NCBI RefSeq assembly: GCF_040717445.1
Contig: NZ_JBFEFL010000001.1
Location: 1,870,001-1,934,000 of the forward strand
From: Qipengyuania sp. JC766
GTDB lineage: Bacteria; Pseudomonadota; Alphaproteobacteria; Sphingomonadales; Sphingomonadaceae
Reading direction: 5' to 3'
DNA length: 64,000 bases
Both the position numbers and the translations under genes were made by a program. Below, piece by piece: positions 22,516-40,384 of the stretch. Numbering within the stretch: position 1 is the first letter of the stretch; every line of letters begins with the position of its first letter. Under the pieces are notes generated by a model. The model was not told the DNA's origin, made no database searches, and worked only from the letters and a program-made list of their open reading frames with translations.

Positions 22516-23459
22516 GCCGCGTCCCCTTGCGCTTTGGCGCGCAGGCCGAGCAGGTGGCAGATCGCGTAGGCGAGGTCCGCGCGGTTGAGCGTGTAGAAAT
22601 GGAACTGGCGCACGCCGCCTGCATAGAGCCGGCGGCACAGTTCCGCGGCCACCGTCGCGGCGACCAGCTGGCGGGCGGCCGGGCGCGCGTCGAGCCCATC
22701 GAACAGGCCGTCCATCCAGTCCGGAATGACCGCGCCGCACAGGCCGGCGAACTTGCGCGCCTGCGCCACATTGGTGACCGGCAGGATGCCGGGGACGATC
22801 GGCGCATCAATGCCGCAGGCCTTCGCCTGCGCATCGAATTCGAAGAAGGTTTCGGGCGCGAAGAAAAACTGCGTGATGGCGCGCGTGGCACCGGCGTCGA
22901 TCTTGCGCTTCAAATTGTCGAGGTCGGATTCGGGGCAATCCGCGTCGGGATGGGTTTCCGGATAGGCGGCGACCGAAATCTCGAAATCGGCCACTTCCTT
23001 CAGGCCGCGGACCAGTTCTTCCGCGCTGGCATAGCCTTCGGGATGCGGGGTGAAGGGCGCGCCGGGTTCGCCGGCATCGCCGCGCAGCGCCACGATGTGC
23101 CGCACGCCCGCTTCCCAGTACTGCTCGGCGATCTTCTGCGTTTCCGCGCGGGTCGCATCGACGCAGGTCAGGTGGGCAGCCGCGGGGATCCCCGCTTCCG
23201 CGATGATGCGCGCCACGGTCGCGTGCGTGCGCTCGCGGGTCGATCCGCCCGCGCCGTAGGTGACGGAGACGAACTTGGGTGCGAGCGGCTTCAGTTCCTG
23301 CACCGCGTCCCACAATTGCGCTTCCATCTTCTCGCTCTTGGGCGGGAAGAATTCGAAGCTGACTTCGCAATCGCCGGGCAGGCCGGAAAAGAGCGGGGTA
23401 TCGTGGGCCGTGCGCTTTTCCTGCACCGGATCGAGTTGCACAGGGCTGGATGCGTTCAT
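22512..23459 (-). CDS. metF: 5,10-methylenetetrahydrofolate reductase
   Basis: 315-residue FAD enzyme reducing methylene-THF to methyl-THF for methionine synthase. Typical motifs: EVSFEFFPPK with the catalytic Glu, FVSVTYGAGGST, AHLTCVDATR, and the ITQFFF segment. The N-terminal ~25 residues are a variable extension. It is the second gene of the leftward operon, overlapping the regulator gene upstream and metH1 downstream by four bases each. Confidence 0.96.
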   Translation of the reverse strand: MNASSPVQLDPVQEKRTAHDTPLFSGLPGDCEVSFEFFPPKSEKMEAQLWDAVQELKPLAPKFVSVTYGAGGSTRERTHATVARIIAEAGIPAAAHLTCVDATRAETQKIAEQYWEAGVRHIVALRGDAGEPGAPFTPHPEGYASAEELVRGLKEVADFEISVAAYPETHPDADCPESDLDNLKRKIDAGATRAITQFFFAPETFFEFDAQAKACGIDAPIVPGILPVTNVAQARKFAGLCGAVIPDWMDGLFDGLDARPAARQLVAATVAAELCRRLYAGGVRQFHFYTLNRADLAYAICHLLGLRAKAQGDAA

Positions 23460-24442
23460 CGAATTGCCTTCCTTGACGGCGTTGCGGCCAGTCCGCCCTG
23501 GCGGGTGCCGAGCCAGATCTTCACGACCAGCTCCCCGTCCTCGAGCGCGATCGGACTGGATGGCGAATATCCTGCTTCGGACAGCAGCGTGCGCATCGCG
23601 CCGTCGGTGAAGCCGAGGCGGGCATGGGCGAAACGCTCGCGCAGTTCTTCCCGGTCGTGCGCGGCGAAGTCCACGATGGCAATCCGCCCGCCCCCGCGCG
23701 TGACGCGCGCCGCCTCCGTCAGCACGACGGACGGATCGGCGGCGAAATGCAGCACCTGGTGCAGCAGCACCGTGTCGAACGAACCGGCGGGGAACGGCAG
23801 GGCCGAGAAGTCCCCCTGCACGAGGTCCACCGCGCCCGCCGGCAGATTCTGGAGATTGGCCCGCGCCACGCGCAGCATGTCGAGGCTCTTGTCGAGCGCG
23901 ACGACCTCGTCCGCCTGCTCCGCGAAGATTTCCGCCATGCGGCCGGTCCCGGTGCCAATGTCGAGCATCCGTCCGATCGATTCTTCGCCGATGGCGGCGG
24001 CGAGGCTTTCCTCGACCTGCGGGTCCGGGCTGTGCAGCTTGCGCAGTTCGTCCCAGTCCTCGGCATGGCGGGCGAAATAGGCTTCGGCGCTGGATTCGCG
24101 GGCCGAGCGGATGTTGGCCAGATGGCGGCGGTCCTCGTCGCAGGCCTCACGGAACTCGGCGTCCTCCTGCTCCGCGATGGCCAGCAGCCGCGCGATCGCC
24201 TCGTCCGTGGCATTGCCCCGTTCGCGCCCGATGGTCGCACGCAGGAAGACCCAGCTCCCCTCGCGGTGGCGCTGCGCGAGCCCGGCATCGCACAGAATCC
24301 CGACATGCCGCGATACCCGCGGCTGGCTCTGTCCCAGCACCTGCGCCAGTTCGCCTACGGCCAGCTCCATGGCAGCCAGCAGCCGCATGATCCGCAGCCG
24401 GGTAGGGTCGGCCAGTGCCCGCATGATCGTCTCGATGCGCAT
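23456..24442 (-). CDS. ArsR-family regulator fused to a methyltransferase domain (SahR-like)
   Basis: 328 residues. Residues 1-90 form an ArsR winged helix (ALADPTRLRIMRLL, then the recognition helix in GQSQPRVSRHVGIL). Residues ~140-328 are a class I SAM methyltransferase fold: motif I LDIGTGTGRMAE, VALDKS, and QGDFSALPFP. The start at 24442 (MRIETIMRAL) is typical; an upstream extension would run through the operator. Heading metF-metH1-metH2 suggests SahR, the ArsR repressor of SAM-cycle genes that senses S-adenosylhomocysteine; the methyltransferase fold is a plausible ligand pocket for it. The SahR identity is inference from context. Confidence 0.82.
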   Translation of the reverse strand: MRIETIMRALADPTRLRIMRLLAAMELAVGELAQVLGQSQPRVSRHVGILCDAGLAQRHREGSWVFLRATIGRERGNATDEAIARLLAIAEQEDAEFREACDEDRRHLANIRSARESSAEAYFARHAEDWDELRKLHSPDPQVEESLAAAIGEESIGRMLDIGTGTGRMAEIFAEQADEVVALDKSLDMLRVARANLQNLPAGAVDLVQGDFSALPFPAGSFDTVLLHQVLHFAADPSVVLTEAARVTRGGGRIAIVDFAAHDREELRERFAHARLGFTDGAMRTLLSEAGYSPSSPIALEDGELVVKIWLGTRQGGLAATPSRKAIR

Positions 24443-24452
24443 ATCGCGATGG

Positions 24453-24563: not shown

Positions 24564-25172
24564 ATGAGCAGCGAGAACGAAGACATAGCCAGGCTGCGCG
24601 CCGAACTGCTCCAGTTCGTGCTCGACGAGTTCCGACTGGCCGCAACGGACGGGGAAGCAGCCCCCGCTCTGGCCCGGTTCCGCGAAGCCTTCGCCGAGGA
24701 CGTCCGCTCGATCGTGCGTGAGACGCTGCGCGCAGAGATGCCGCACTACCGCACCGTCAGCCTCTCCGACGAGGACGTCGGTCGCGTGGCGGCCGCACTC
24801 GGTGCGCTCCATTATTCGGATGAGCCAGAGCGCGGTCGTCCGGCTGCAGCATCGGAAACCCCGATCGAGGACGCGCCTCGCGCGAGCCGCAGGTCCGGGA
24901 TCATCGGCAATGCGCAGGAGCGCCGGGACGAGAGGACGTCGTCGACCGAACTGTGGCTGAAGGGCCTTGCGGCGCTTCTCCTGACCGTCGCGGCGGGCGC
25001 GATGGTCTACTATTTCCTGATCCAGCCTCAGGACGAACCGGACGTCGTGAGGACAGCCGAACCCATCGAGACCGCCACTCCGGGCCTCGACAAGGGAGGG
25101 CCCGACCAGCCGACCTCCGAACCGAACGAAGTCCCTGCCCCCGCGCCGACCTCGACGAGCCAGGCGAACTGA
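24564..25172 (+). CDS. Single-pass membrane protein, first gene of GTPase-SEDS-PBP operon
   Basis: 202 residues from the ATG at 24564 (MSSENEDIARL); an earlier in-frame ATG at 24507 lies near the divergent promoter and is less likely. Residues 1-90 are acidic and helical, possibly coiled-coil (AEDVRSIVRETL). A Pro/Arg-rich linker follows. One membrane helix is at about residues 132-152 (AALLLTVAAGAMVYYFLI), then a Pro/Thr-rich tail of about 45 residues, so the N-terminus is probably cytoplasmic and the tail periplasmic. No family recognised. Ten bases separate it from the next gene. Confidence 0.75.
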   Translation: MSSENEDIARLRAELLQFVLDEFRLAATDGEAAPALARFREAFAEDVRSIVRETLRAEMPHYRTVSLSDEDVGRVAAALGALHYSDEPERGRPAAASETPIEDAPRASRRSGIIGNAQERRDERTSSTELWLKGLAALLLTVAAGAMVYYFLIQPQDEPDVVRTAEPIETATPGLDKGGPDQPTSEPNEVPAPAPTSTSQAN

Positions 25173-25182
25173 CCGCACGCGG

Positions 25183-26715
25183 ATGTTGCTTCCTGCCTTC
25201 CATTTCGGCCCCAGCCAAGGCGCACGCAGCAGCCGGATCCTGGCCTCGTCCCGGAACCTGGACGCCTTCCCCGATATCGAGGCCCGCGTCCTCTCGGACA
25301 TCCCGCTGGCCGTGGCGGCCTGGCTCGAGCAGCGAGAGGAGGATGAGCTGTACGCCTGCCTCCCGCTGACCCGCCAGTCGAGCGGCGGGCGCGTCCTGCT
25401 GCGCGCGCGATACCTGCGCCAGATCGGCGGCGAACCATACGGCCTGGCGAGCGGCCTCTACCTCGGCCCAGAGGCATTGCGCGCCCTTGGCGGCCATGCA
25501 GAGCGGATTGCGCACCTCCTTCCGGACCCGGAAAGCGAGTCCGCTGCAGCCGCTGAACCCTTCGCCGTGGACCCGGCCAGCGATCCGGTTCCTGCCGACC
25601 CTGTCGAAACGGGCCTCGAATGGTCCGATCTCGCGATCCGGATAGAAGACGGGACCGAGCCCTTGGCCGTGACGCGGGAAGTCCTGGCGGGCATGCGCCA
25701 TCCCGAACAGGCCCGGCGCGTCATTGGGTGGTGTAGCTCCGCCCGGTTCCCCCGGCTCGGCTCGATCGATCCGGACGCCGCGTTTCAGCTGGTCGTGAGC
25801 GCCCACTCCTATCCGGCCGGCCAGCGGCGCGAAGCCCTATGGAACGACGGATATCGCGGATCGGTGCATTCGCCACCACCGTCATGGGACGCCTGGACGA
25901 AGATACGCACCCTGCTTGCAGCCGACCCCTACCTGCGGGAAGCGAACGGCTGGGCGCTCAACTTCGCGTCCCTTCCCCCCGAACGGATCGCAGGCGCACT
26001 GCTCGACCGTCACGCTGCAAGGATCGCACAGGACCCGCGCGCCTATCTCGGCACGCTCCTCCGGTTCAGCGATGCGCAGCTGGTCGATTCATCGCGGTCG
26101 CGTATTGCGGACCGGATCGAAAAGGGTGACGAGGCCTCCCGCGGTGCCCTGCTCGCAGCCTTGCTGGAGCTCGACGCGGACACCAGCGCCCGTCTCGAAG
26201 TCGACGGCCTGTTCCTGAACCGGCCGGAACTCGCACAGTTCCTGCCCCGGGAGGCGTTCCGCGCAGTTCTTGCGAAGGCGAACTGGTTGCGCGGTCCCGC
26301 CCGCTCGAAACGCCATCTGAGAGATCTCAGGCAGGATCAGCTGCTGGACGCGATCGATCACGCCCTCGTGCAAATGCAACGCGGCGAACCCGGCATGGAA
26401 AGCGCGTTCGACGAACTGGTCGAGGAATTCTTCCGTCCGGAACGGTCCGGAGTGCGCGCATCCACCGAAGCCGGCGCGTTCGCGGACGCCGTTTCGCGCC
26501 TTGGGATCGAAACCGTCATACCCTGGCGTTATCAGCCCGAATTCTACGCCTGGCAGCGGGAGGCACCGGCGACCAGGCAGGCCTGGAAGGCGACGCTCTC
26601 CACGCTGAAGGTCCCGCATCGGCTGTCCGCGCGTCCCGCCGATCTGGCGACCCTCACGAGCGCCCTTTGCGAGGTCAACGCGTCCCGGACCGGCCAGCGG
26701 GGGGCAATCGCATGA
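25183..26715 (+). CDS. Possible GTPase-associated protein 1 (GAP1)-like protein
   Basis: 510 residues, soluble, no signal peptide. Residues 1-110 (FGPSQGARSSRILASSRNL, then RQSSGGRVLLRARYL and LASGLYLG) resemble in pattern the N-terminal domain of the GAP1 proteins predicted to accompany GTPases in bacterial conflict systems; that match is from memory and weak. Residues ~140-510 are helical with many charged residues and may be a repeat-like scaffold (LLAALLELDADTSARLEVDGLF, FDELVEEFFRPE). Its stop overlaps the GTPase start by four bases (ATGA), which argues strongly for a functional pair. Confidence 0.7.
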   Translation: MLLPAFHFGPSQGARSSRILASSRNLDAFPDIEARVLSDIPLAVAAWLEQREEDELYACLPLTRQSSGGRVLLRARYLRQIGGEPYGLASGLYLGPEALRALGGHAERIAHLLPDPESESAAAAEPFAVDPASDPVPADPVETGLEWSDLAIRIEDGTEPLAVTREVLAGMRHPEQARRVIGWCSSARFPRLGSIDPDAAFQLVVSAHSYPAGQRREALWNDGYRGSVHSPPPSWDAWTKIRTLLAADPYLREANGWALNFASLPPERIAGALLDRHAARIAQDPRAYLGTLLRFSDAQLVDSSRSRIADRIEKGDEASRGALLAALLELDADTSARLEVDGLFLNRPELAQFLPREAFRAVLAKANWLRGPARSKRHLRDLRQDQLLDAIDHALVQMQRGEPGMESAFDELVEEFFRPERSGVRASTEAGAFADAVSRLGIETVIPWRYQPEFYAWQREAPATRQAWKATLSTLKVPHRLSARPADLATLTSALCEVNASRTGQRGAIA

Positions 26716-28115
26716 GCGATACTTGCGACGGCTGCGGCGAGCCCCTGACGGACGGCCGGTGCACGAACCCGGAATGCCTTCATTTTGTCCCTCTCGAGGA
26801 AGCGCGCTCGACTGCGACGGGTACCCGGTTCGAGGATGACGATCTCGAACGGATCTATCGCCGCTGGAGCGCGTGGAAACGGAACCCGGACCAGGTCGAA
26901 TTCGTCACCGTGTTCGGCTTCCCGACCGCCGGCAAGACGTGGCTCACCGCACGATTGCTGGAGAAGCTTCCCGAAAGGGGATGGGACCGCACGATCGACC
27001 CGATCCTCGGCTCGGCCAACCTCTACGACTACATCACGGCCTATCGCTCGATCGGTCAGACTCGCAATCTTCTGGTCCACGCGGTCGTGCCGCAGGGCTC
27101 GGGCGATGAAAAACATATCGAGCTCGTCGACATACCGGGCGAATTCGTTCGCCGGCTGGTGGAAGAACCGCGCGCTGCGCCTCCGCTGTCGCTGATTGCC
27201 GCGCTCGCCATGTCGGACCGGGTGATCATTGCTGTGCCGAGCGACGTGTGCGTTCTGGGTTCGCTCGTCGCCGCCGGCATTCAGGACAATCCGAAAGGCC
27301 GCGACCGCCAATCGATCGTGGAGGAGATCGAACGTCGCGACGACCTCGATCTCGACAGGAGACGCGCGGAACTGGCCGAACGCATCGCGGAACTGCGCAA
27401 GGGCGACGCGTTGGAGGGCGAGGAATATTCCGCGGCGTGGAAGGAGTACGAGGATGTCTCGGTCCAGCTGGTCGAGAAGATAGTCCTCTACGAACACGCG
27501 CGCCTGCTCCAGTTCGCGGACCGGATGAACGACGTCTTCGGACAGGTTGCCCATGTGCTCGATCGCTTCGGCAGGGACGGGCTCTTCGACGAGAAGACCG
27601 ATCCCGACACCTGGCTTCGCGACTTCGATCCTCTCGACGCGCTGAAATTGCCGCCGATATCGAGCACCTCCTTCGCCGCCCTGACCAAGGCCGACCGGGT
27701 GGTTCCACTGCTGACCGATGCGCTGGGTGGCTTGCCGCAATGCGAGGAGTGGCGGGACCTGCCCGAGCGAAAGGTCTTCTACGACAGGCTGTGCGAAGCG
27801 GGGTGGAACGACACGCTGGGCGCGCGAGTCGGCGACCCGCGCCTGGTCGTATCGCTGCTCAATCCGAAACTGCTCAACCGGTTCGACCGCTGGCTGCCGC
27901 GCATGCAGTACGAGTGGGCAAGCGCTGACTGGGAATCGGGCGACTGGGCGATCGAGATGGACATGAGCCATCCCGACGCCGGCGTCGATCGCCTGTGCGA
28001 CTGGTTGCTTGGCGACCAGTCCATCCCGAAGGCGCCCTGGGCCATCCACGACCAGCTGGCGCGCATCAGGGCGGGTATCGAGGGCCGCGATCGGCAGGGC
28101 AGGCCGAGGCGATGA
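26712..28115 (+). CDS. Zinc-ribbon P-loop GTPase-like protein
   Basis: 467 residues. A four-cysteine zinc ribbon opens the protein (Cys 5, 8, 17, 22). The GTPase core follows: Walker A GFPTAGKT at 69-76, a DIPG switch-II/G3 motif at 140-143 (LVDIPGEF), and TKAD at 325-328 as the NKxD-type G4 motif. Between G3 and G4 is a long charged helical insert (about residues 195-265), probably coiled coil. I infer GTP binding; the arrangement recalls the GTPases described beside GAP1 proteins in predicted conflict systems. No membrane segment, so it acts in the cytoplasm. Overlaps both neighbours by four bases. Confidence 0.8.
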   Translation: MSDTCDGCGEPLTDGRCTNPECLHFVPLEEARSTATGTRFEDDDLERIYRRWSAWKRNPDQVEFVTVFGFPTAGKTWLTARLLEKLPERGWDRTIDPILGSANLYDYITAYRSIGQTRNLLVHAVVPQGSGDEKHIELVDIPGEFVRRLVEEPRAAPPLSLIAALAMSDRVIIAVPSDVCVLGSLVAAGIQDNPKGRDRQSIVEEIERRDDLDLDRRRAELAERIAELRKGDALEGEEYSAAWKEYEDVSVQLVEKIVLYEHARLLQFADRMNDVFGQVAHVLDRFGRDGLFDEKTDPDTWLRDFDPLDALKLPPISSTSFAALTKADRVVPLLTDALGGLPQCEEWRDLPERKVFYDRLCEAGWNDTLGARVGDPRLVVSLLNPKLLNRFDRWLPRMQYEWASADWESGDWAIEMDMSHPDAGVDRLCDWLLGDQSIPKAPWAIHDQLARIRAGIEGRDRQGRPRR

Positions 28116-28828
28116 CCGGGAAGCTGCCCCTGCCACGCCCCCTCAAGGGCTACCATGTCGAACGCTTCAAGTACGACCTCATCACGGTACGCTGGCGATA
28201 CGTGACCTCAATGGTCATAGGCGGACTGGCGCTAATGCTGATCCTGTTCGCAGGGCTTCATCTGGTCGGTGTGTCCACACCGCAATATCCGGCGATAGCA
28301 GACCCCGACCAGGCTTTGCCGGAAGAGGTCTGGCCGAGCTACGACGACACCCTGCGGTCGGCGCTGTTCGAAGAAGACGGCATCGCCGAGACGCTCAATC
28401 AGGACGATCTGCGCAATCGCCTTGCCGAGATTGGCACCAACAATCGCCTGATCGCCGCCGGCAGGCCGCCGCGACGGCTGGCGTCGGAAACGGACGCGCC
28501 TGAACTGTCCGTCGATGCTTCCGCCAATATCGAAGCCTATCGAGACTGGGCATCCTCGAAGGGCTGCATGCTGGGGGGATGGGAGGGAGAGGCACGCCGG
28601 CAGGTGGCTGCTCTCGTCCGCAACGGAGTGTGGAACTGCAGCGACGCGCAGCGCTGGATAGCGAGCTGGCCGATGGTCGAAACAATGGGGACGCTGGGCG
28701 GCGGGGTCGTGACGGTCGCGCTACTGGCCGCACTGCTGTTCGTCGCCATCCTGCTGGTGCGGCGGATGTGGCGGCTCGAACTGTTGCGACGGCTCAATGC
28801 GGCGCTTTACGGAAGCTGGGCGGGCTGA
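28112..28828 (+). CDS. Two-pass membrane protein with periplasmic domain
   Basis: 238 residues from the ATG at 28112 (MTGKLPLPRPL), overlapping the GTPase stop (ATGA). Membrane helices at about residues 31-53 and 190-213 flank a ~135-residue domain that should be periplasmic; this carries two cysteines (GCMLGG and WNCSDA) that could form a disulfide. Short basic cytoplasmic ends (HVERFKYD and RRMWRLELLRRL). No recognised family. Its place between the cytoplasmic GTPase and the envelope enzymes suggests a transmembrane coupling role; that is inference. Confidence 0.75.
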   Translation: MTGKLPLPRPLKGYHVERFKYDLITVRWRYVTSMVIGGLALMLILFAGLHLVGVSTPQYPAIADPDQALPEEVWPSYDDTLRSALFEEDGIAETLNQDDLRNRLAEIGTNNRLIAAGRPPRRLASETDAPELSVDASANIEAYRDWASSKGCMLGGWEGEARRQVAALVRNGVWNCSDAQRWIASWPMVETMGTLGGGVVTVALLAALLFVAILLVRRMWRLELLRRLNAALYGSWAG

Positions 28829-28843
28829 GGCGCGATCCGCGCG

Positions 28844-31378
28844 ATGAAAAGCGACCCGTCCCCCTTCTTCGCCACGTTCGACACGATCGTGCTTGTCGCC
28901 TGCTGCCTCGCCCTCGCGGGCCTCATCTGGTCTTTCCGCAACAGCATCCCGAAGGAATGGCAGCGCTGGACGGCGGCGCTGCTGCCATTCGTCATGCTTG
29001 GCCTGCTCACGGCCGGCGCAGCGATCGACGGCTCGCGCGGGTCCAAGCTCACGGCCGAGATTTCCGGCTTCGTCGTGCCGTCGGATGCGGTTCCTTCCGA
29101 CGGTCTGGAAGTGCTCGTCTTTCGCGTCGGTGACCGGTCGGAAGCGGCGGACCTCGTCGTTCGGCCGTTCCTGCAGGACTTCCTGAACCAAGGGTTCGCA
29201 GCCGACGACCCGCGCCACTACGTCGACATTTTCGCATCGCGGTCCGCCGACGGGACACTGGCCGCGAGAATGGAACTGACCCAGTACCCCGGGGACCCGG
29301 CGCAGGACATTCCCGGGATGCGGACGACGATCGGCGGGACGGTCGAGGAACTGACCGAGGGCGACGCCCTGCGCTCGCAAGTGCGCCTTGCCCCGGGACA
29401 GAGCGCAAGACCGGCCATATTCCGCGACGACAGCAGCACATCCGGCCGACAATACCAGGCGCGTCGGTCGTTCGAGGTTCGCAACCGCGCCCGGGAAGGG
29501 GAGCGCGAGGCCAGTATCGTCATCGATCTCGACCAGCCCTTGCGCGCAGATGCCGGAACCTGCGCCGATCCGAGAAACGTGCTGATCCCCGCCGCCCGCG
29601 ACGGTGCGCCGCCTCCGGGATATCTCATGCCGAGGTCGCTCGAATTCGCGGCGCTGGGCACGGGCGGACACGCGCGCGCAATACTGGGCACTCAGGCCCT
29701 GGGACCGATCGCCGACCGCGAGGGGCTGTGCCAGGCCGGTCAAATCGAATGGCCCGCTCCCGGTTCATCGGATGCGAGCCGGCTGCAGATGGACTTCACC
29801 TATCTCGCGGTTCCGTGGCTGCCGGTCTGGCTACTGTTTGCCAGCTGCCTCGCAAGCGTCCTCATCGGCAAGGGTACCTCCCGTGCGGAGAGCATTCTCA
29901 TGCCGGTCCTGCTTTTCCTGCTGGCCCTGCGCTCGCTGGTGGCGGTGGCCAGCGCCTTTTACGACACGTCCATTCCGCCCCACGTCTTTTTCAACGATGC
30001 GGCCTGCGCGACGATCGCGTTGCCGCCGCTGCTCGCCGCCCTGATCCGGCCGGTCGGGGACACTGGACGCACCGAGTGGCTGGGCTGGCTCGCACTGTCC
30101 GCCGCGCTCGTCGGGATCACGCTTCTGTGGACGGGGGGAATGGCACCCTCGCCCGATCTCGTAGCCGTGCTGATCCTGACCGCAACCCTTCTGATGGTGC
30201 GTGCGATCTGGCCCGATCGCTCGCCGGTCCAGCGCATTTACGAACGGATGCCGGAGAGTTTTCAGCTAGCGGGGACGCAGTGGCATGCCCTGCTGGCGAA
30301 GCTCAAACTCGAGAAGGCCACCGACTACACGGCGAAGCAGATGACCCGCATTCCGGCGCAGAGGCTGCTTCGCGCCGCCTTCGTCCTGCTGGTCTGCCTC
30401 TTCGCTGTCCGCTTCCTCCTCGCGGTACCCTTCGGGTTCAAGGAACGTGTCGGCGCAATTCCGCTCAGCCTGCCGTTCCTGTTTACGCTGATACTGGCGG
30501 CGACGCTGGGCACGATCGGGGTGCGGTCTCTGCAACGCGATCGGCTTAAAGGAGCCTGCTGGCTGATGGCTGGACTGTCTCTCGCCTTCCTGGTCTTCAT
30601 GCCGGGAATGGTCAGCGACACGGGGTTCGTGCTCGTTCATTTGCCGCCTATCGCAGGCGTCATCGCGTGGCATCTCGCAAGATCGGCGAGCGGAGACAGA
30701 TCGCGCGTTGCGGCGGCCGGCATCGCGTTCGCGCCCCTGGCGGCGCTACTTGCCCTCATGGGCGTGCTGGCATGGCAAGACCATGCGCGCCTGTCCGTCC
30801 TCGAAGATCCGAACACGCCGGTGGCAGACCGCATTCAGGCATCTCTCGGGGCCGATCCCAACAGCCTGCGCCTGATCCAGCTGGTCAGCCCGGAAACGGT
30901 CGAATCCGTCGGCACGCTCGCGGCCTATCGCCAGATGGAACAGTCGGCGATGCTTCATTCCCTCACCGACGATGTCTTCGGGGAAGGCTGGCTGGCCCCG
31001 GCAGAACTACTCAGCATCCGCAAGGAACAGGCCTGGGACTACGTGGCGGCCGTCCATATCATGCACCCGTTCGGCAGGATCGGTGCAGTCGCGATCCTCA
31101 TCCTCTTGGGAGCGATGGCAGGCGCACTGGTAACCGGCACACGAACGCGGATACTGTCCAAGTCGCCAGAAGAGGTCGCCGGGTTCCGGATCGCCGGCCA
31201 GATGGCGACATGGACGCTGTTTTTCAGTGCAACCTACATGGTTCTTGGCAATCTGCTGCTCGTGCCGTTCACCGGTCGAAACATCTACCTTCTCGCCAAC
31301 CTGTCGTCGGGCGACATGCTGGAAGGGCTTATGCTGGTAGCGCTGTCGACTCTTGCCCTGTTCGGGAATGACGAATGA
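28844..31378 (+). CDS. SEDS (FtsW/RodA)-like polytopic membrane protein
   Basis: 844 residues. Two N-terminal helices (about 9-30 and 44-60) precede a ~240-residue periplasmic domain with cysteines; then roughly ten more helices to the C-terminus. The last 130 residues match the end of SEDS glycosyltransferases: A-W-D-Y-V-A-A-V with Asp 732 aligns with the catalytic Asp of the FtsW/RodA H-T-D-F-I-F-A-V motif, followed by a glycine-rich helix and N-L-L-L-V-P-F-T-G-R-N, which aligns with the N...LLPVTGxPLP segment. The assignment is by motif pattern; the large periplasmic insert near the N-terminus is unusual. Overlaps the PBP gene by four bases, as expected for a SEDS-PBP pair. Confidence 0.7.
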   Translation: MKSDPSPFFATFDTIVLVACCLALAGLIWSFRNSIPKEWQRWTAALLPFVMLGLLTAGAAIDGSRGSKLTAEISGFVVPSDAVPSDGLEVLVFRVGDRSEAADLVVRPFLQDFLNQGFAADDPRHYVDIFASRSADGTLAARMELTQYPGDPAQDIPGMRTTIGGTVEELTEGDALRSQVRLAPGQSARPAIFRDDSSTSGRQYQARRSFEVRNRAREGEREASIVIDLDQPLRADAGTCADPRNVLIPAARDGAPPPGYLMPRSLEFAALGTGGHARAILGTQALGPIADREGLCQAGQIEWPAPGSSDASRLQMDFTYLAVPWLPVWLLFASCLASVLIGKGTSRAESILMPVLLFLLALRSLVAVASAFYDTSIPPHVFFNDAACATIALPPLLAALIRPVGDTGRTEWLGWLALSAALVGITLLWTGGMAPSPDLVAVLILTATLLMVRAIWPDRSPVQRIYERMPESFQLAGTQWHALLAKLKLEKATDYTAKQMTRIPAQRLLRAAFVLLVCLFAVRFLLAVPFGFKERVGAIPLSLPFLFTLILAATLGTIGVRSLQRDRLKGACWLMAGLSLAFLVFMPGMVSDTGFVLVHLPPIAGVIAWHLARSASGDRSRVAAAGIAFAPLAALLALMGVLAWQDHARLSVLEDPNTPVADRIQASLGADPNSLRLIQLVSPETVESVGTLAAYRQMEQSAMLHSLTDDVFGEGWLAPAELLSIRKEQAWDYVAAVHIMHPFGRIGAVAILILLGAMAGALVTGTRTRILSKSPEEVAGFRIAGQMATWTLFFSATYMVLGNLLLVPFTGRNIYLLANLSSGDMLEGLMLVALSTLALFGNDE

Positions 31379-33810
31379 GCCGAACTCAGGCCTTCTGGGG
31401 GGATAGGAAGCCGGGCACGAAGGAACCCGCAGGGCAAGGCGGGCGCATCTTGTGGGTGGCGGTCGCCATCGTCGCGTTCGCCATTTTGGTCGGACCTGCG
31501 CTGAGAAATCCGCCGTCGTTCCGATCCGACATCGCGGGAACGGGCTATCCCCGGATCGTCGATTCGCTGATCGATCTCGATTTCCTCAAGGTCGAAGAAA
31601 GGCCTGACACCGACCGATCGGCGCGCATCATCTTCGACGAAGCTGTCGTTGGCCGATCGGTAGCGGACGCGGTCGAGGGTTCGCGCGGAGGCCTCGGCGA
31701 GTGTCGCTATCGCAGGCCGCTCCGCGACGCATTTTCCGAACCGCTCGCATTCGCAGGCAACGCCTGGGCGGAATGGACCGGTGCGCCCGCCACGACCGAA
31801 GACTGCCTCGACCTGCTGTCACGCCTGCGTGCCGCGACCTTCCTCGGGCAGGACATGCGGGTCGACAGCTCCGACATATGGCGTTGGGAAAACGACGAAC
31901 TCTCTGGGATGGCCCCGGGCGCGCATATCATCTCGGACGCGACGCGCGCCTACAGCGGTTGGCGCGGCTCGCTCCTGTTCCGCAAGCCTTACGTACCCGC
32001 CATGCTAGTGGACCCCGTCACCCGCAAGGTACTGCTGCGGTTCGATCCGTCCCTGCAAAGCACGATGGACTTCGTCCCGTCGCGCGCGATCCAGACAGAG
32101 GCCCGATCGGCAACGACGGCCATTGCGAACCTGCAATCCGCGGACGCGCGGTGTCGGGGCAGCGCGCAGGCCTCGCTACTCGGAGACAAGTTGCTTCTGA
32201 CACTGTTGCCGGTCAATCGCACATCCGACTGTCCCGACATCTACGTGGACAATCGCTTGGTCCATTCGGGAAGCAGTGCGACGGGCCGCCCCCGGTACGT
32301 CCTTCTCGAACCCGGGCAAATTGTAACCGTTGGCGAAAGCCGACCTGTGATGATGCAGTTCGTGCACGGACTTGGCGGCATCACCGTCCTGAACAATGGA
32401 CGCCGGCGATACGAACCCACCCTGGCGCAAGTCGGTGCGGCCGTCGCCAACGCTTCACCAGAGGGCGATCTCCTGTCGAGCATCGATCCGCAGCTTCATT
32501 TCAAAGCGCAACGCCTGCTCGAAAACCAGGCCGGTTCGATCATGCGAGAGCAAGGTGCGAGCCTGCGGGCAGCCGCCCTGCTCATTGACGGGCTCACCGG
32601 CGAAATCGTTGCCGCACCTACTTTCCCGGCGCAGGTGGATCAGCTAGCACCTTCAGACCGCTATCGCGCGTCGCGGCTCGGCTGGCTTGGCCAGAACCAG
32701 AACTTCCAGCGGCTCCCCGCGGGATCGACGGCGAAGGTCCCGATCGCGACGGCAATCGTGCAGAGATATCCCGAACTGCTGACGCTTCGCGCGCAGGCCC
32801 GGCCCGGGCCTTTTGGAACCCTGCTGGGCACGGATCTGAAGGTCGGCGGCAATCCGGTGGCGGCAAACGTGCGTGGCGGATCCATCGACTTCGAAACCTT
32901 CATCGCGAAATCTAGCAATTATTATGCCCTGTTGCTGATGCGGCTCGCAGCGTCGCCCGAGCCTTTGGCGAGCGATGGACCCGCGATTCCGGCAAACGAA
33001 GCCTATTCGATACTCGGCCGGACGTATCGCAACGCTCCGGCGCTGCCGCGCGACGGCCGGCAATGGGCAACCTCATGGGGTGACATTCTGTACCGGATGA
33101 CCTGCGTACCACCCACGAGCGCGTACGAAGCTGCCGAAGATAGCAAAGAGATCTGCCCCGAGGCCTATTTCGATCACTCGAAAGTCGACAATCCCGGCGG
33201 GCTGGCACCCCTTGCGCATGTGCCGCCGGACCTGGAGTTCGACTTTATCCGGCCGGAATTCATCTATCAGGATTATCTCCAGTCGATCCTGGGCCAGAGC
33301 CGGTCGCTCTGGACGAACGCGGCGCTCGGACAGGCGTATTCCCGCATCCTCACGGGTCGGCAGGTCTCGCTTCATTTCGACGCTCGAAGCAGCGGTCCGG
33401 GCGACTTCGAACCACTCGGAATCCGTCGGGAAGTCTGGCAGGCCGTCACACAGGGAATGGCGGGCGCCGCGTCGAGCGGGACGGCGTCCGCCCTGAGCCA
33501 GGCATCTGGATCGCGGTTCGACGATATCGCCATTTACGCGAAGACGGGCACGCCCACGGTCGCCATCGACGGACAGAGCCGGACCGGTCACGCCATTGCC
33601 GTCGCTTTCGTGCGCTACGACGGGCCCAGAAGCCCCGACACGATCTGTTCGACGCGGGTTGCTGTCGTGAACATCCAGGGACGGACGGAGGCGGACAGGC
33701 AGCCGGCACTAAGTTTCGTGCGCACGCTGATGTCGCGCCAAGAATTCGCGAACTGGCTAGCGGCTCCCTGTCCCCCTAAAGCGCCGCAGCCGCAGGCGGG
33801 CCGGAACTGA
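31375..33810 (+). CDS. Penicillin-binding protein transpeptidase with novel N-terminal half
   Basis: 811 residues, one N-terminal membrane helix (about 26-44), so the body is periplasmic. Transpeptidase motifs are all intact: S-T-A-K at 451-454 (nucleophile Ser 451), S-S-N at 513-515 and K-T-G-T at 723-726; the entry strand SSIDPQLHFKAQRLLENQ and LIDGLTGEIVAAP are typical of class A/B PBPs. No glycosyltransferase-51 motif is seen, so it is class-B-like and would depend on a partner polymerase, presumably the SEDS-like protein just upstream. The ~310 residues before the transpeptidase do not resemble a standard PBP pedestal. Confidence 0.85.
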   Translation: MSRTQAFWGDRKPGTKEPAGQGGRILWVAVAIVAFAILVGPALRNPPSFRSDIAGTGYPRIVDSLIDLDFLKVEERPDTDRSARIIFDEAVVGRSVADAVEGSRGGLGECRYRRPLRDAFSEPLAFAGNAWAEWTGAPATTEDCLDLLSRLRAATFLGQDMRVDSSDIWRWENDELSGMAPGAHIISDATRAYSGWRGSLLFRKPYVPAMLVDPVTRKVLLRFDPSLQSTMDFVPSRAIQTEARSATTAIANLQSADARCRGSAQASLLGDKLLLTLLPVNRTSDCPDIYVDNRLVHSGSSATGRPRYVLLEPGQIVTVGESRPVMMQFVHGLGGITVLNNGRRRYEPTLAQVGAAVANASPEGDLLSSIDPQLHFKAQRLLENQAGSIMREQGASLRAAALLIDGLTGEIVAAPTFPAQVDQLAPSDRYRASRLGWLGQNQNFQRLPAGSTAKVPIATAIVQRYPELLTLRAQARPGPFGTLLGTDLKVGGNPVAANVRGGSIDFETFIAKSSNYYALLLMRLAASPEPLASDGPAIPANEAYSILGRTYRNAPALPRDGRQWATSWGDILYRMTCVPPTSAYEAAEDSKEICPEAYFDHSKVDNPGGLAPLAHVPPDLEFDFIRPEFIYQDYLQSILGQSRSLWTNAALGQAYSRILTGRQVSLHFDARSSGPGDFEPLGIRREVWQAVTQGMAGAASSGTASALSQASGSRFDDIAIYAKTGTPTVAIDGQSRTGHAIAVAFVRYDGPRSPDTICSTRVAVVNIQGRTEADRQPALSFVRTLMSRQEFANWLAAPCPPKAPQPQAGRN

Positions 33811-34208
33811 TGGTGCGCAGAACAGCCTTCGGCAGCGAGCGTCTGGTACAGCGCTCCAGAACGCGCTTCGTCCTGATCGTGGCAATGCTTGCGGTTCCCG
33901 CATTCCTCGCGGCGCTCCTGCCCTCCAGCCCTCCCCGCCCACCGGTATCGGATAGCATCGCCATAAAGCCGTTGCCGCAGAATGTGACGTGGGCATGCGG
34001 GCAGGCGAGAACGGAAGAATGCGAAACGTCGGCCTTCCTGCGGGCCTACGACCTGGACTCCGGAAATCGACGTCCGCTCGGACAGGAGCTTCGTCCAAGG
34101 ATCGGGGCCGGCGGCAGGTTCGACCCCGAACGCGACATCATCGTCCCGATCGATTCCCGATGCGAAGAGGGTGGCGTTCCGGGCTGTGCGGGCGAAATCG
34201 GCGGATAG
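33810..34208 (+). CDS. Small single-pass membrane protein, last gene of GTPase-SEDS-PBP operon
   Basis: 132 residues; the ATG shares one base with the PBP stop (TGATG). A basic N-terminus (VRRTAFGSERLVQRSRTRF) precedes one membrane helix at about residues 20-38; the rest is a ~90-residue periplasmic part with four cysteines (WACGQ, EECET, RCEEG, GCAGE) that may form two disulfides. No recognised family. Tight coupling to the PBP suggests an accessory subunit. Confidence 0.65.
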   Translation: MVRRTAFGSERLVQRSRTRFVLIVAMLAVPAFLAALLPSSPPRPPVSDSIAIKPLPQNVTWACGQARTEECETSAFLRAYDLDSGNRRPLGQELRPRIGAGGRFDPERDIIVPIDSRCEEGGVPGCAGEIGG

Positions 34209-34423: not shown

Positions 34424-35701
34424 ATGACCACCGATACCAACCGCGGCACCGTCTTGGCGGCATTCGTCGCCGTGACGACGCTTTTCTTCGCGTGGGGCTT
34501 CATCACCTCGCTGATCGATCCACTGGTGGCCGCCGTGAAGGGGATTTTTACACTCAACGATCGCCAAGCCATGTTGTCGGCGTCCGCGTTCTTCATCGCA
34601 TACGGCGTGGTCAGCTTTCCGGCAGCCGCACTCATCGCCAAGTGGCGCGCGGTGCCGTCCATCCTCATCGCGCTGGTCATGATGGTCTTCGCGTGCCTCA
34701 TCATGCTCGGCGCTGCGAACATCGCCAATTACAACCTCGTCCTTCTGGGCCTCTTCGTCCTGGCGAGCGGAATCACCATCCTCCAGGTCGCAGCCAATCC
34801 GCTGGCCGCCGCGCTCGGAGATCCCGAGAAGAGCCATTTCCGGCTCACCCTAGCCCAGACGTTCAACAGTTTCGGGACCATTATCGGCCCATGGCTCGGT
34901 TCGCTGCTATTCCTGAAAGGTGTTGAAGTGGACGAGGGCGTCGCGCTCACCGAGGAAGTTCGTAACAATGCCCTCGCCGGCATCGATACCGCCTATTTCT
35001 GGATTTGCGGTCTGCTTTTGGCCCTGCTGGCCTTCTTCTACTTGAAGCGTCGGACCGTCTCGAATGCGGCCCCCGTCATCGGTTCGGGCAAGAACCTTTT
35101 CCAGCTCATCGGCGACGCGCTTTCGTCCAAATGGGCGCTGATCGGAGCCGGCGCGATCTTCCTCTACGTCGGGGCGGAAGTCGCCATCGGCGCGCAGATG
35201 GCCCTGTTCCTCAATTCCGACGGCATCTGGAACATCAGCCTCCAGCAGGCCGGAACCATTGTCTCCTACTACTGGGCCGGGGCCTTTGTCGGGCGGCTGG
35301 TCGGCTCGTTTCTCCTGTACCAGTTCAAGGCCTACAAGCTCCTGATCGTCTTTACCGCCGCGGCTGCACTGATGTGCCTTTACGTGTTCCTTGTGGGCGG
35401 GGTGACCGCAGGCTACGTCGCGCTCGCGATCGGCCTGTTCAATTCGATCATGTTTCCGGTGATCTTCACCCTGACCCTCGAGCGGTCGACTGCCAGCGAG
35501 GAAGCGACGTCCGCCATGCTGTGCACGGGCATCGTCGGCGGCGCGGCCATCCCCTACATCGTCGGGTCGGTCTCGGAAGCGAGCACCTATACGGTCGCGT
35601 TCGTGGTTCCTGCCGCGTGTTACGGCCTGCTGTGCCTCTTCGCCTTCGCGGCGGGCCGCGCAACGCCGGTGCGCCATTCCGAATCGAAGGTCGCGCATTA
35701 A
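34424..35701 (+). CDS. FHS-family MFS sugar permease (FucP/NagP/GluP type)
   Basis: 425 residues, about 12 membrane helices. The segment ANPLAAALGDPEKSHFRLTLAQTFNSFGTIIGPWLGSLLF is the hallmark of the fucose/glucose/galactose:H+ symporter family; FFAWGFITSLIDPL at the N-terminus is likewise typical. Substrate cannot be set from sequence: glucose, galactose, fucose or N-acetylglucosamine are candidates. No sugar kinase or glycosidase accompanies it. Ribosome site CAGGGAGAC lies 5 nt before the ATG. It separates the GTPase operon from the fimbrial cluster. Confidence 0.9.
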   Translation: MTTDTNRGTVLAAFVAVTTLFFAWGFITSLIDPLVAAVKGIFTLNDRQAMLSASAFFIAYGVVSFPAAALIAKWRAVPSILIALVMMVFACLIMLGAANIANYNLVLLGLFVLASGITILQVAANPLAAALGDPEKSHFRLTLAQTFNSFGTIIGPWLGSLLFLKGVEVDEGVALTEEVRNNALAGIDTAYFWICGLLLALLAFFYLKRRTVSNAAPVIGSGKNLFQLIGDALSSKWALIGAGAIFLYVGAEVAIGAQMALFLNSDGIWNISLQQAGTIVSYYWAGAFVGRLVGSFLLYQFKAYKLLIVFTAAAALMCLYVFLVGGVTAGYVALAIGLFNSIMFPVIFTLTLERSTASEEATSAMLCTGIVGGAAIPYIVGSVSEASTYTVAFVVPAACYGLLCLFAFAAGRATPVRHSESKVAH

Positions 35702-35947: not shown

Positions 35948-36343
35948 ATGAATATTCCTTTGAAATTGTCGCTCATGACCGCGGCGTGTTGCGCCCCGCT
36001 CGCGCCAGCATATGGAAATGAAATTTCTATCTCGCTGAGGGCCATTGTGGAACCGAGGTGCCAAATCGTTAACGTCGTGTCATTGCCTGACGAACAGATA
36101 CAAGGTCTCGAGGTCTCTGTTCTTTGCAACGCTCCCAACTATCGTTTAAGCGTTTTAGGTGAAAACGGACCTCTGCCTGTTGAGATCAGAAGTTCATCCG
36201 AGACAGAAAGTTCAGTCAAAGCTGTCGGAAGCTCGATACTCGTTTCAGCAAAACAGCCGGGGCTGCAAGTGCTGGACCTAGAATTTCAGGGCGGGCTGGC
36301 AGGAGCCAATGGTATCTACAGAATCCAACTTGATGGATTCTGA
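35948..36343 (+). CDS. Small secreted protein, diverged pilin-like (Spore coat U type)
   Basis: 131 residues with a Sec signal peptide (about 1-23, ending APAYGNE) preceded by a good ribosome site (ACGAGGTG). The mature part is short, with two cysteines (PRCQIV and VLCNAP) spaced like those of the other pilins in this cluster and a final beta-strand (GIYRIQLDGF) comparable to their A-G-x-Y endings. It is the shortest and most diverged member; the donor-strand-like C-terminus T-A-N of the others is missing. Its 3' end converges on the tip-protein gene with an 11-bp gap. Confidence 0.6.
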   Translation: MNIPLKLSLMTAACCAPLAPAYGNEISISLRAIVEPRCQIVNVVSLPDEQIQGLEVSVLCNAPNYRLSVLGENGPLPVEIRSSSETESSVKAVGSSILVSAKQPGLQVLDLEFQGGLAGANGIYRIQLDGF

Positions 36344-36354
36344 TATTGCCTTCG

Positions 36355-37188
36355 CTACTGTGCTGTGAATGAAAGAGTGATCACGTCTCGGTAGACTCCC
36401 GCATAGGCTGATGTAACTGGAGCCACGTCGATTTGAACAGCGGCTTCAGTCAATTGGCCTGAATTGGGAGCCATATCGATCCCTGTGGGACCTTTCAGAT
36501 TGAGCGGTATTCCATTGAGGCTGGACGAGTAAGGGATGGTTCCAAGCTGCGCGCCGTTCTCATGGGTAAGCGCTCCCAAATTGTCAGATTCGATAGTAAG
36601 GGTGGTTCTCGCGTTGGAGCGGAAGTAGATCGACCGACGTATGGAGACGCCTTCGTTAAGTCTTCCCAAATCAACGTTGATATTGCCATTCTCGGCCTCT
36701 CCGAACATTCGGATGGTTGGGCTTACCAACACGTTGACAACCAGCGTTCCAAGTTCCTGTCCGTTCGAAGTGAAATCGAGAATTGTCTGATAGTTACCGG
36801 ACGGGACGAATTGACCTGCGTCCAACTTTAGGAATTCGAATGGGACTTCCACCCCATCCAAGAGTGCCTTCAGGCCGAGCGGGCTGAACAATATCTCAGA
36901 TCTATTGCTGGCGAAAACTTCTGGCGCATCCACGTGTGTCGAGTTTAGGGCCGAGCCGGCAGAAGCGAGAACGAAAACGCTGGCATCTCTTGGAGTGATG
37001 CGAAGGTCGTCCAGTTCACAGTCATCGCTAAGGCGTACCGAAACCCGAACAATTGAGTCGGTCAGATCATTGGCATCGTATTCGTCAAGCCCAATTTGGC
37101 GAGCGTCGAAAGAAGTTGCGTCGCATTCGCGCGCCCAAGATGGGTTTGAAATCGCCACCAGGCTGAAAAACAAGATCAGCAATCTCAT
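36355..37188 (-). CDS. Fimbrial tip/adhesin-like secreted protein
   Basis: 277 residues with a signal peptide (about 1-19, ending PSWARE). Two domains are suggested: an N-terminal part with cysteines (RECDAT, DDCELD) to about residue 150 and a C-terminal pilin-like domain closing with TSAYAGVYRDVITLSFTAQ, the same A-G-x-Y-x-D pattern as the pilins 5 kb away. Two-domain architecture at the far end of a chaperone-usher operon is typical of a tip adhesin. ATG overlaps the usher stop by four bases. Confidence 0.72.
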   Translation of the reverse strand: MRLLILFFSLVAISNPSWARECDATSFDARQIGLDEYDANDLTDSIVRVSVRLSDDCELDDLRITPRDASVFVLASAGSALNSTHVDAPEVFASNRSEILFSPLGLKALLDGVEVPFEFLKLDAGQFVPSGNYQTILDFTSNGQELGTLVVNVLVSPTIRMFGEAENGNINVDLGRLNEGVSIRRSIYFRSNARTTLTIESDNLGALTHENGAQLGTIPYSSSLNGIPLNLKGPTGIDMAPNSGQLTEAAVQIDVAPVTSAYAGVYRDVITLSFTAQ

Positions 37189-40100
37189 TGTCTTTCCATC
37201 TCCAAAGCTTCAATACGGATGAGCGCATCGGCGTCTTCCGCAACGATAAAGCGGCCCGCAATCTGCCGATCTGGGAATTCGATTACATACTCACCAGGAG
37301 CAAGATCGCTAAAGGCTGCGCGCCCGGCTCTATTGGTGAAAAAGGTCACGTCAGCGGCGCCTTCATTGTCAACTCGTCGGTAGCTTCCGTATTCTAACGA
37401 AACCGGCTCCGATTCGAATAGGAGGGTCGCAAGTACGGTACGATACGCGTCGTTTCCGATTTCTATCACAAGACCCGATCTCGCTCCGCTTTCCAAAAGA
37501 TATCTGCCAGCGCCGATGTCGTAACCGACCGGGAGATCATTCGCCTCAACAGCTACCTGCTGCGGACGGAAGGGCGAGTTGACGGCAAACAAGCCGGGGC
37601 CAAAAGCGTTAGCGATACCGAGTTCTCTCCCTGCCGCGCTCGTTCGCGCAATCAAGGTCGCATCCTCGATCGACGGATGCCTTGAAAGGATTGTAAAGCC
37701 CCGTGATGCGTCACGTCCAATCGCAAACTTTCCGTCAGCGAAGCCAATACCTGTCTGAAAACGTGCATTGGCGATGGTCTGTCCGCCGAAGTTCCCGGAC
37801 CCGAAGCGCGTCGCCAGATCAAGATCCGCATCGAACCGTGAGTTGGCGTAGCCAATCCCGCCGAAAAGAGATTCTCCACCGGGATCTGTAGCTATGCCGA
37901 CCCGGTAGTCGACTTCCGGGAGTTCCAATCCTCGTTGACGACGGAATTCCGCACGGCCGCGTCCGGTGACAGTGTCATAAGTCGCCGTAACGCTATTCCT
38001 ACGTCCGAAAGGCAGAGTGACAGTGGCCAAAATACCGAATTCGCCCCCGTCAGTTCCCGCGCGATCCGAGTATCGGGCGGCCAGGGTCGTGAAGAGTTGT
38101 CCGAAATTGCGCCGCATACCGAGTGAGTAGAAGTTGTCGGCTCCCTCGACACGATACCGTTCCACATAGTTCGCACTGGCGAATGCCGCGGTCGATGGTG
38201 ATAGGTTGATTTGGTAGTCCGCCCTCAAATCGAACTTTATGTTTTCCAAGTTCGCGAACTGCCCGATCGTTGTAAATTCGCGCGATCTGTAATCGACGGT
38301 AAGGGTTGCGAACTCTGCATCGTCGGCTCCGGCAAATGGTGATCCGCGATAAGTGGCACCAAACGCAAAGCCGCCGCCATCGCTATCGTCATTGCTGAGA
38401 GCAAAATCAGCAGTGACGGTTCCGAAGGGAGTGCCGATAGCGGCCGCTCCGCCAGCGTTTTGCTGACGCTCTGTGATGACTGCATGAGCCGCGACAGTGA
38501 GGTTCGTTCTGATCCCGCGCTCGTAGAACGCGCTAACCACCGGATCGTCAGAATAGTCAAACCCGAAGGAATTTGTGTTCCTGAGAACACCCAGCGAGAC
38601 GCTGAACTGATCAATACCTTTGGCTAAAAGTGATATGTCGGATCCGAAGACGAAATTGTCTACCTCTCTTCGGCCGAGTGAATCCTCAACGATAATCGTC
38701 ACATTATTACTGAACGATGCAAGCGGAATCTGCGTGATATCGAGCGGCCCGGCCTCCGCAAAAAACCTCTCCACCAAAACTTCGTTTACATAGACTTCAA
38801 CTATTGATCGTCGATCCAAGCGTAATGATCGGGACGCAGTAGGCCTGATGTTTCTTATGGGTTGGAGGGCCTCGTAATTTCTCTCAAGCGAAAATCCGAG
38901 CAGGTCCAGAGATCCTGCGAGACGCGCCTGAGGAGGAGCAAGATCTCCCCCCGAGATTCGCAATGCTTTCTCAGGCCAGTCCTTGAATGCGGTGATCCGG
39001 TTTCTCTGGAACAAGCTCCGCTCACCGCTGTTGCTGATCGCAATGTCGCCGCCATAATCGACATTCAAACCATCGATTCCACCAAAATTCAGGAAACCGG
39101 AAAAACCAATCGATGTTCGAGGATCGAATCCCCCCTCAAGTGGCGCAGATGCGAGCAAGGCCCCGGTCAGGCCAAACGAGAAATCAGAAGGCAGAATTTG
39201 CTGCACACCGGAAAATTCGATCTCTTGCGATGCCCTGATGGTGGAGTTGCGCAAAACTCCTGGATCGATTTCGATTTCAAGTGCGAGCGTTGCTGGGTTC
39301 AGAGCGATGGAGATCCCGAAATCGGACAGCTCCTCCACCGCAACCGATCGATCTCCAAGGGACACCAGGGCTTCCAAGGTCCGGTCGTCGACAACGTCCG
39401 TAAGGCTTCGCACGATATCGGTCGCGTCGACTGCCAGAACGCGCTCCGTCGTGATGGTCGCCGTAATAGGCAGGAATGGCCGTCCGTTGACAATCAGCGG
39501 GAGGCTTAGCGTGAAGGCCCGGCTATCGATGTCAGGAGCATCCATTTCCGGACCGTCCAGGTTCTCCTGAAGGGTTTGCTGTTGCTCCAGCTGGCTTGAA
39601 TTGCGGGCATAATAGCGCGCTTTCACATTCCCGATCTCGTGTGATGCCGTCCGCGCATCAACAATATTCGCAGGAAATCGCTTGCGCAAATCCGCACCGG
39701 CAAAAGAATGCCGTGACCGAAAAAACTGGATATGCTTCTCTTCGCCGTCCACAATACTGCTGGGATTGCGGTTGGGATCGCCCAACAGTTTTGTGCCGTC
39801 CGTGAAATCGAAGATCGGTGGAAGGTCAAACCCGCGCGATGGAAAAAAGGGAACCGAGCTGGTGACCGCAGGATATTTGTCATCTTCCAGCTGCGAGCCG
39901 GAGAGGCGCTGACCACTTGTCGAAGCGGGTTGGGTCGCTTCTGAGTGGGTATTGATAAGCTGACCTCGATGCAGGTCTTTACGCAACACCTGCGAGGGGT
40001 CGGCGGGGAAACTTTCGAAGGCCGGGGCGCCAGGACCTGTGCCGTGAGATAGCCGATCGGAAAGATCGACAAGAAGGTTTGGGCATGCGGCTTCAGATCG

Positions 40101-40349
40101 ACTGATCGGTGACCAGAACACGTCCGAGATTTCCAAATCTACCAAACTACTATGGGGTTCTGGCGGACCAGCGGCGCAGCTGTCCTTGATCTGCCCTTCA
40201 TACGGGATTTTTCCGCTCCCCCCTGTACGCGTCGGGTGAGGAACGACGTATTGGAAGGGTGGCCGCTGTGTTTCGATCGTATCGGCAGACGCCGGCAAGG
40301 GCCCGGCTAACGCCGAATGTGCTACGGACAGCAATAGCAGCGGCTTCAA
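37185..40349 (-). CDS. Outer-membrane fimbrial usher, with long N-terminal extension
   Basis: 1054 residues. The usher core starts near residue 285 (LSLPLIVNGRPFLPITATITTERVL) and includes R-S-L-R-L-D-R-R-S-I-V-E-V-Y-V-N, G-P-L-D-I-T-Q-I-P-L-A-S-F-S-N-N-V and long stretches of alternating beta-barrel strands with Asp/Arg-rich turns. Ushers export chaperone-bound pilins and assemble the fibre at the outer membrane. Typical size is 780-870; here ~260 additional residues precede the core, Pro/Ser-rich and without recognised domain, after a signal peptide (ending ASADTIE). The extension is open and in frame, with no sign of a frameshift. Confidence 0.85.
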   Translation of the reverse strand: MKPLLLLSVAHSALAGPLPASADTIETQRPPFQYVVPHPTRTGGSGKIPYEGQIKDSCAAGPPEPHSSLVDLEISDVFWSPISRSEAACPNLLVDLSDRLSHGTGPGAPAFESFPADPSQVLRKDLHRGQLINTHSEATQPASTSGQRLSGSQLEDDKYPAVTSSVPFFPSRGFDLPPIFDFTDGTKLLGDPNRNPSSIVDGEEKHIQFFRSRHSFAGADLRKRFPANIVDARTASHEIGNVKARYYARNSSQLEQQQTLQENLDGPEMDAPDIDSRAFTLSLPLIVNGRPFLPITATITTERVLAVDATDIVRSLTDVVDDRTLEALVSLGDRSVAVEELSDFGISIALNPATLALEIEIDPGVLRNSTIRASQEIEFSGVQQILPSDFSFGLTGALLASAPLEGGFDPRTSIGFSGFLNFGGIDGLNVDYGGDIAISNSGERSLFQRNRITAFKDWPEKALRISGGDLAPPQARLAGSLDLLGFSLERNYEALQPIRNIRPTASRSLRLDRRSIVEVYVNEVLVERFFAEAGPLDITQIPLASFSNNVTIIVEDSLGRREVDNFVFGSDISLLAKGIDQFSVSLGVLRNTNSFGFDYSDDPVVSAFYERGIRTNLTVAAHAVITERQQNAGGAAAIGTPFGTVTADFALSNDDSDGGGFAFGATYRGSPFAGADDAEFATLTVDYRSREFTTIGQFANLENIKFDLRADYQINLSPSTAAFASANYVERYRVEGADNFYSLGMRRNFGQLFTTLAARYSDRAGTDGGEFGILATVTLPFGRRNSVTATYDTVTGRGRAEFRRQRGLELPEVDYRVGIATDPGGESLFGGIGYANSRFDADLDLATRFGSGNFGGQTIANARFQTGIGFADGKFAIGRDASRGFTILSRHPSIEDATLIARTSAAGRELGIANAFGPGLFAVNSPFRPQQVAVEANDLPVGYDIGAGRYLLESGARSGLVIEIGNDAYRTVLATLLFESEPVSLEYGSYRRVDNEGAADVTFFTNRAGRAAFSDLAPGEYVIEFPDRQIAGRFIVAEDADALIRIEALEMERQ

Positions 40350-40384
40350 AGCCCCCTCCCCTTCAATCGCCCTTGTAGTTATTT

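Follow-up and report, generated by a model that had tools for sequence, protein, structure and literature searches.

Seven co-directional open reading frames, here called g1 to g7, occupy positions 24564 to 34208 on the forward strand of the window, the 64-kb stretch of DNA that was analyzed. They encode a 202-aa membrane protein (g1, 24564 to 25172), a 510-aa soluble protein (g2, 25183 to 26715), a 467-aa predicted GTPase (g3, 26712 to 28115), a 238-aa membrane protein (g4, 28112 to 28828), an 844-aa SEDS-like protein (g5, 28844 to 31378), an 811-aa predicted class B penicillin-binding protein (PBP) (g6, 31375 to 33810), and a 132-aa membrane protein (g7, 33810 to 34208). Gaps of 10 bp and 15 bp separate g1 from g2 and g4 from g5, respectively. 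The g2-g3 (ATGA), g3-g4, and g5-g6 junctions are 4-bp overlaps, and g6 and g7 overlap by 1 bp (TGATG). The tight packing claimed in the preliminary description is therefore real, but it extends to all six junctions and not to five of the six. The preliminary description had also placed the GTPase first, and this order had to be corrected: the GTPase gene is the third, after the single-transmembrane (TM) g1 and the soluble g2.

Upstream, a fused ArsR-type regulator/SAM methyltransferase gene (23456 to 24445, reverse strand) is transcribed away from the operon, with about 120 bp between them. Behind it lie metF and a homocysteine S-methyltransferase gene, both named from sequence. Downstream, a gene for an MFS transporter that is fucose-permease-like by eye (34424 to 35701) follows g7 in the same direction after a 215-bp gap. 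No terminator was found in that gap, and neither a sigma-70-like promoter nor a terminator was found at either end of the operon. Further on, a stretch of lower GC content (51 to 56%; 35948 to 43924) adjoins tRNA-Thr and tRNA-Cys genes (43723 to 43924). It carries a chaperone-usher-like pilus cluster with an usher-like gene (37185 to 40349, reverse strand), a chaperone-like gene (40385 to 41137, reverse strand), and pilin-like ORFs, and it is probably a genomic island.

Protein searching turned up a single homologous operon, in JADHVO010000006.1 of the MAG Alphaproteobacteria BS750m-G3 (hereafter G418; L007, 5006 to 17087). This genome belongs to another order of the same class. Its operon has seven genes in an order identical to g1 to g7, with junctions of -22, +24, -14, +3, -4, and -4 bp, so that in both genomes the SEDS-like gene is next to the PBP gene and overlaps it by 4 bp. 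The two copies are only about 25 to 32% identical. By blastp, g1 (E value, 6e-4), g3 (6e-4), g5 (2e-17), and g6 (3e-37) matched their counterparts, whereas the pairing of g2, g4, and g7 relies solely on their position, size class, and membrane topology. We saw no counterpart of the MFS transporter gene downstream of the G418 operon. Scans of the operon proteins against Pfam, NCBIfam, PADLOC, and PHROGs returned almost nothing, and the system as such is unrecognized by Pfam, NCBIfam, and PADLOC.

The g3 protein begins with four zinc-ribbon cysteines (C5, C8, C17, and C22, in a CxxC-CxxxxC arrangement; 26724 to 26777), followed by a P-loop, G1, at residue 69 (GFPTAGKT; 26916 to 26939), G3 at residue 140 (DIPGE), and G4 at residue 325 (TKAD). 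It thus has the P-loop of a TRAFAC GTPase and the Walker B glutamate that mark DO-GTPases, together with the N-terminal zinc ribbon that these proteins often carry. In hhalign comparisons it aligned with the DO-GTPases of genuine GAP1-N1 systems (E values, 7e-9 and 7e-7), and somewhat more weakly with Era/Der/Obg (8e-7). The cutoffs of Pfam DO-GTPase1 and DO-GTPase2 were not reached; g3 gave no match and the G418 copy gave a DO-GTPase2 E value of 0.024. The G418 GTPase has a degenerate G4 (SIAD) and no zinc ribbon. From its motifs, we assign g3 to the TRAFAC GTPases, as a zinc-ribbon protein with the "PGE" signature that DO-GTPases show. A DO-GTPase match in a further genome (G446) was rejected as a relative because it is a different mobile-element protein. 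Residues 18 to 147 of g2 aligned to GAP1-N1 at the same N-terminal position (hhalign E value, 0.005), scoring 32.3 where the best of 100 shuffles reached 24.3; single copies alone scored barely above the shuffles. No Pfam model, the GAP1 models included, and no NCBIfam model matched g2. Its likeness to GAP1-N1 is weak.

The g6 protein has one N-terminal TM segment and carries the active-site motif STAK (S451 and K454; 32725 to 32736), the SSN motif (S513 to N515; 32911 to 32919), and the KTGT motif (K723; 33541 to 33552). All three motifs (SxxK, SxN, and KTGT) are intact in both copies. The Pfam Transpeptidase model gave an E value of 1e-4 and 22.0 bits, just below the cutoff of 22.1 bits, and there was no Pfam match to GT51. 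When a two-row g6 profile was searched against the PDB, class B PBPs were the only matches. Together, the motifs and the profile search identify g6 as a predicted class B PBP.

The g5 protein is predicted to have two N-terminal TM segments, a soluble domain (about residues 65 to 318), and then a polytopic SEDS-like region. Pfam PF01098 did not match g5, detecting only two canonical SEDS genes in the host genome, and in a single-sequence search with our own SEDS HMM g5 (E value, 0.2) did no better than decoys. However, profile-profile comparison aligned g5 with alphaproteobacterial SEDS proteins (E value, 0.0017) and, more strongly, with a set of 30 SEDS proteins that included Escherichia coli RodA and FtsW (6.5e-4). 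This match is in register over the region from ECL4 to TM9, and it scored 35.2, compared with a best score of 29.4 in 100 block shuffles that retain the hydrophobic stretches. MraY and MFS controls did not align with g5. Asp732 of g5 (31037 to 31039) falls on the putative catalytic aspartate of RodA (E. coli D262) and FtsW (D297), and it is kept in the G418 counterpart. The corresponding residue of Pseudomonas aeruginosa FtsW, D275, is a putative catalytic residue (PMC7614612).

In a six-row MAFFT alignment, R676, P683, G713, G715, D732, G744, G747, P808, and G811 of g5 fell on SEDS-invariant columns, so that the R..P, GxG, FG..G, and P-x-T-G motifs and the aspartate are kept in register. A SEDS motif string searched in 656 frames matched g5, its counterpart in G418, and otherwise SEDS genes only, a test that is not fully independent because the pattern was tuned on the same sequences. 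The QPxExxK, EE, and SxGG motifs, which are invariant in eight canonical SEDS proteins, are absent from g5. A PDB search with the g5 profile gave no match, and AlphaFold gave no usable model of g5 (pLDDT, 34 for the full length and 42 for the C-terminal half together with SEDS rows). A 1,019-aa frame in another genome (G456) was rejected because it is the ordinary rodA frame. On the combined profile and motif evidence, g5 is very probably a strongly diverged relative of SEDS proteins. Its activity as a polymerase is doubtful, because QPxExxK, EE, and SxGG are missing.

The preliminary interpretation was borne out in part by these analyses. The zinc-ribbon GTPase was supported by its P-loop, DIPGE, TKAD, four cysteines, and DO-GTPase similarity, the PBP transpeptidase by its three catalytic motifs, and the SEDS-like partner of the PBP by its motifs and the profile-profile match. 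As had been claimed, this pair is also separate from the canonical FtsW and RodA, which are encoded elsewhere in the host genome. The suggestion that g2 is a GAP1 relative fared less well: its alignment exceeded all 100 shuffles, but Pfam GAP1 models did not support it.

The remaining three proteins are small membrane proteins, described here from TM scans of their ORFs. The g1 protein has a cytoplasmic helical N-terminal region, one TM segment (residues 135 to 153), and a proline-rich periplasmic tail. In g4, two TM segments (residues 34 to 52 and 198 to 216) flank a periplasmic domain, and in its G418 counterpart two TM segments flank a larger domain. The g7 protein has one TM segment (residues 20 to 38) and a small periplasmic domain. 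The TM counts of one for g1, two for g4, and one for g7 are common to both genomes.

Searches for further copies covered several overlapping genome samples; the PBP gene was sought in no more than about 1,000 genomes. We did not find g5 in 59 sampled relatives or the g3 GTPase in 397 other genomes of the order. A PBP search of 385 genomes of the class found one relative, G418. The PBP profile found G418 itself and no further copy among 96 genomes of the order of G418, and only the known copy in each of two samples of the phylum, which comprised 397 and 144 genomes. Scans of genome contigs yielded no GTPase relative and only the G418 contig for the PBP, and plasmids (n = 72,556) and viral contigs contained no relative of the GTPase, the PBP, or the SEDS-like protein. 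The operon is a real, conserved unit. It is also an accessory, patchily distributed one, because the remaining sampled genomes lack a copy; the host has its own FtsW and RodA. The preliminary description had made its system idea depend on synteny in relatives. Close relatives do not have the operon, but one distant alphaproteobacterial genome has the same seven-gene order, and therefore the idea still stands, for an accessory operon of patchy occurrence. The GC content of the operon (64 to 68%) equals that of the left flank, and the operon resembles the host neighborhood in both overall and codon-position GC. Composition thus gives no support for a recent horizontal arrival, and it is the patchiness that argues for transfer or repeated loss.

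We suggest, as an even call, that the product of the operon is an accessory envelope synthase of the SEDS-bPBP kind, which a GTPase (g3) and its partner (g2) gate via membrane linkers. In this model, the divergent SEDS-like g5 would pair with the g6 transpeptidase, and g1, g4, and g7 would form a scaffold for them. The g2 protein would set the GTP-bound state of g3, and g1 and g4 would read that state through their cytoplasmic parts. The signal would then cross the membrane and switch local glycan polymerization and cross-linking by g5-g6 on or off. FtsA, FtsN, and FtsQLB act likewise for FtsWI, and MreB and MreCD do so for RodA-PBP2. The activation of FtsWI and RodA-PBP2 through contacts between ECL4 and the pedestal offers a parallel to the model (PMC8078798). 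We infer that the proteins would form a complex, that control would run from the GTPase to the wall, and that g5 would polymerize glycan, as we do the purpose of the system in the cell.

The opposite direction of signaling is unlikely but deserves consideration. Here, the SEDS-like protein and the PBP domain would be receptors for lipid II, muropeptides, or beta-lactams, and the GTPase and its partner would be the output. The PBP domain of BlaR/MecR is a precedent for such a receptor. The loss from g5 of several residues that are invariant in working SEDS enzymes is consistent with wall sensing, as are the sizable additional periplasmic domains of g5, g6, and g4 and the predicted action of DO-GTPases in membrane stress (PMC11237479). 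However, both diverged copies have kept the SEDS-aligned aspartate and all three PBP motifs, and the operon has no recognizable output domain. Rather unlikely, in our judgment, is a GTPase/GAP1-type conflict system, directed against phages or competitors, in which a SEDS-PBP effector remodels or seals the wall upon attack. The patchy distribution and the pairing of a PGE-motif GTPase with a GAP1-N1-like partner would fit it, and GAP1 systems are described as acting near the membrane, some with peptidoglycan-binding domains (PMC7159879). Yet PADLOC matches were no better than an E value of 0.03 for either copy, the operon lies outside a defense island and is not flanked by mobile genes in either genome, there is no GASH or FNIII component, the Pfam GAP1 and DO-GTPase models are not reached, and the effector would be synthetic, not destructive.

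It is improbable that the operon is a life-cycle morphogenesis module whose GTPase assembles or chaperones the membrane proteins and does not regulate them directly. The overlapping gene ends suggest coupled translation, and many bacterial GTPases take part in membrane protein assembly, but a fixed role in the life cycle predicts presence in close relatives, which lack the operon. A chance neighborhood of unrelated genes might be read from how little g2, g4, and g7 resemble their counterparts; this has a negligible probability and is refuted by the identical gene order in a distant genome. If a gated synthase is the correct reading, the operon offers a self-contained, transferable unit for testing how a cytoplasmic nucleotide switch activates a wall synthase; under the wall-sensing reading, it would represent an envelope receptor of a new type. 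In addition, g5 marks how far a SEDS protein may diverge with the catalytic aspartate kept, and it exposes a blind spot of Pfam-level annotation.

A full-text search outside the subscription literature found no paper joining GTPase/GAP1-type and SEDS-PBP modules. DO-GTPase/GAP1 conflict systems have been described in a paper whose main text makes no mention of FtsW, SEDS, or penicillin (Kaur et al. 2020; PMC7159879). Like the GAP1-N1 type of these systems, the operon combines a zinc-ribbon GTPase that has a Walker B glutamate (D-x-PGE) with a soluble partner encoded next to it; over its first 150 residues, this partner shows a weak alignment to GAP1-N1 at the same position. Genuine GAP1-N1 comparators, plasmid-borne ones included, have GASH, a metallophosphoesterase, and two GTPases. 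One comparator, a textbook conflict operon in alphaproteobacterium G566 (L021, 6662 to 13520), has a metallophosphoesterase, a GASH-like protein, two GTPases, and GAP1. In contrast, our operon has one GTPase, with the partner gene upstream of it, and its seven genes include neither GASH nor a listed effector, both of which the plasmid-borne comparators have. We therefore did not file it under GAP1-N1, as it lacks GASH, the metallophosphoesterase, and the second GTPase, and a standard GAP1-N1 system was rejected on these grounds and on the missing Pfam matches.

A likeness on the envelope side is a pair in alphaproteobacterium G421 (L063, 2973 to 7973; contig 499), in which a PBP of 843 aa is joined by a SEDS protein of 814 aa; the latter has a soluble domain at its N terminus and a noncanonical D-FITAFYLHKFG motif. 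Unlike g5 and g6, this pair stands alone, with neither a GTPase gene nor any further gene of the operon next to it, runs in the order PBP then SEDS, and retains QPxExxK. It is possibly a bridge between canonical SEDS proteins and g5. Its SEDS gene (L063, 5529 to 7973) matched Pfam SEDS in a six-frame genome search (E value, 5e-12) and had no match in a protein hmmscan; further divergent SEDS proteins may be masked by hydrophobic-bias filtering. In known SEDS-bPBP synthases, activation runs through protein relays linked to the cytoskeleton. Tentatively, and with rather less than even confidence, the operon may represent a third kind of SEDS-bPBP synthase besides those of the divisome and the elongasome, with a dedicated cytoplasmic GTPase switch in place of FtsZ/FtsA or MreB filaments, carried on a mobile accessory operon. 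Compared with RodA-PBP2 and FtsW-FtsI, its SEDS-like protein (844 to 1,034 aa) has an additional domain at the N terminus and a larger number of TM helices, and lacks QPxExxK, EE, and SxGG; g6 has a long, unassigned N-terminal region, and the unit is linked to a GTPase and has a dispensable, accessory distribution. What it shares with these two synthases is the adjacency of a SEDS-like gene and a class B PBP gene, intact PBP motifs, and, in register, the R..P, GxG, FG..G, and PxTG motifs around the SEDS aspartate and the aspartate itself.
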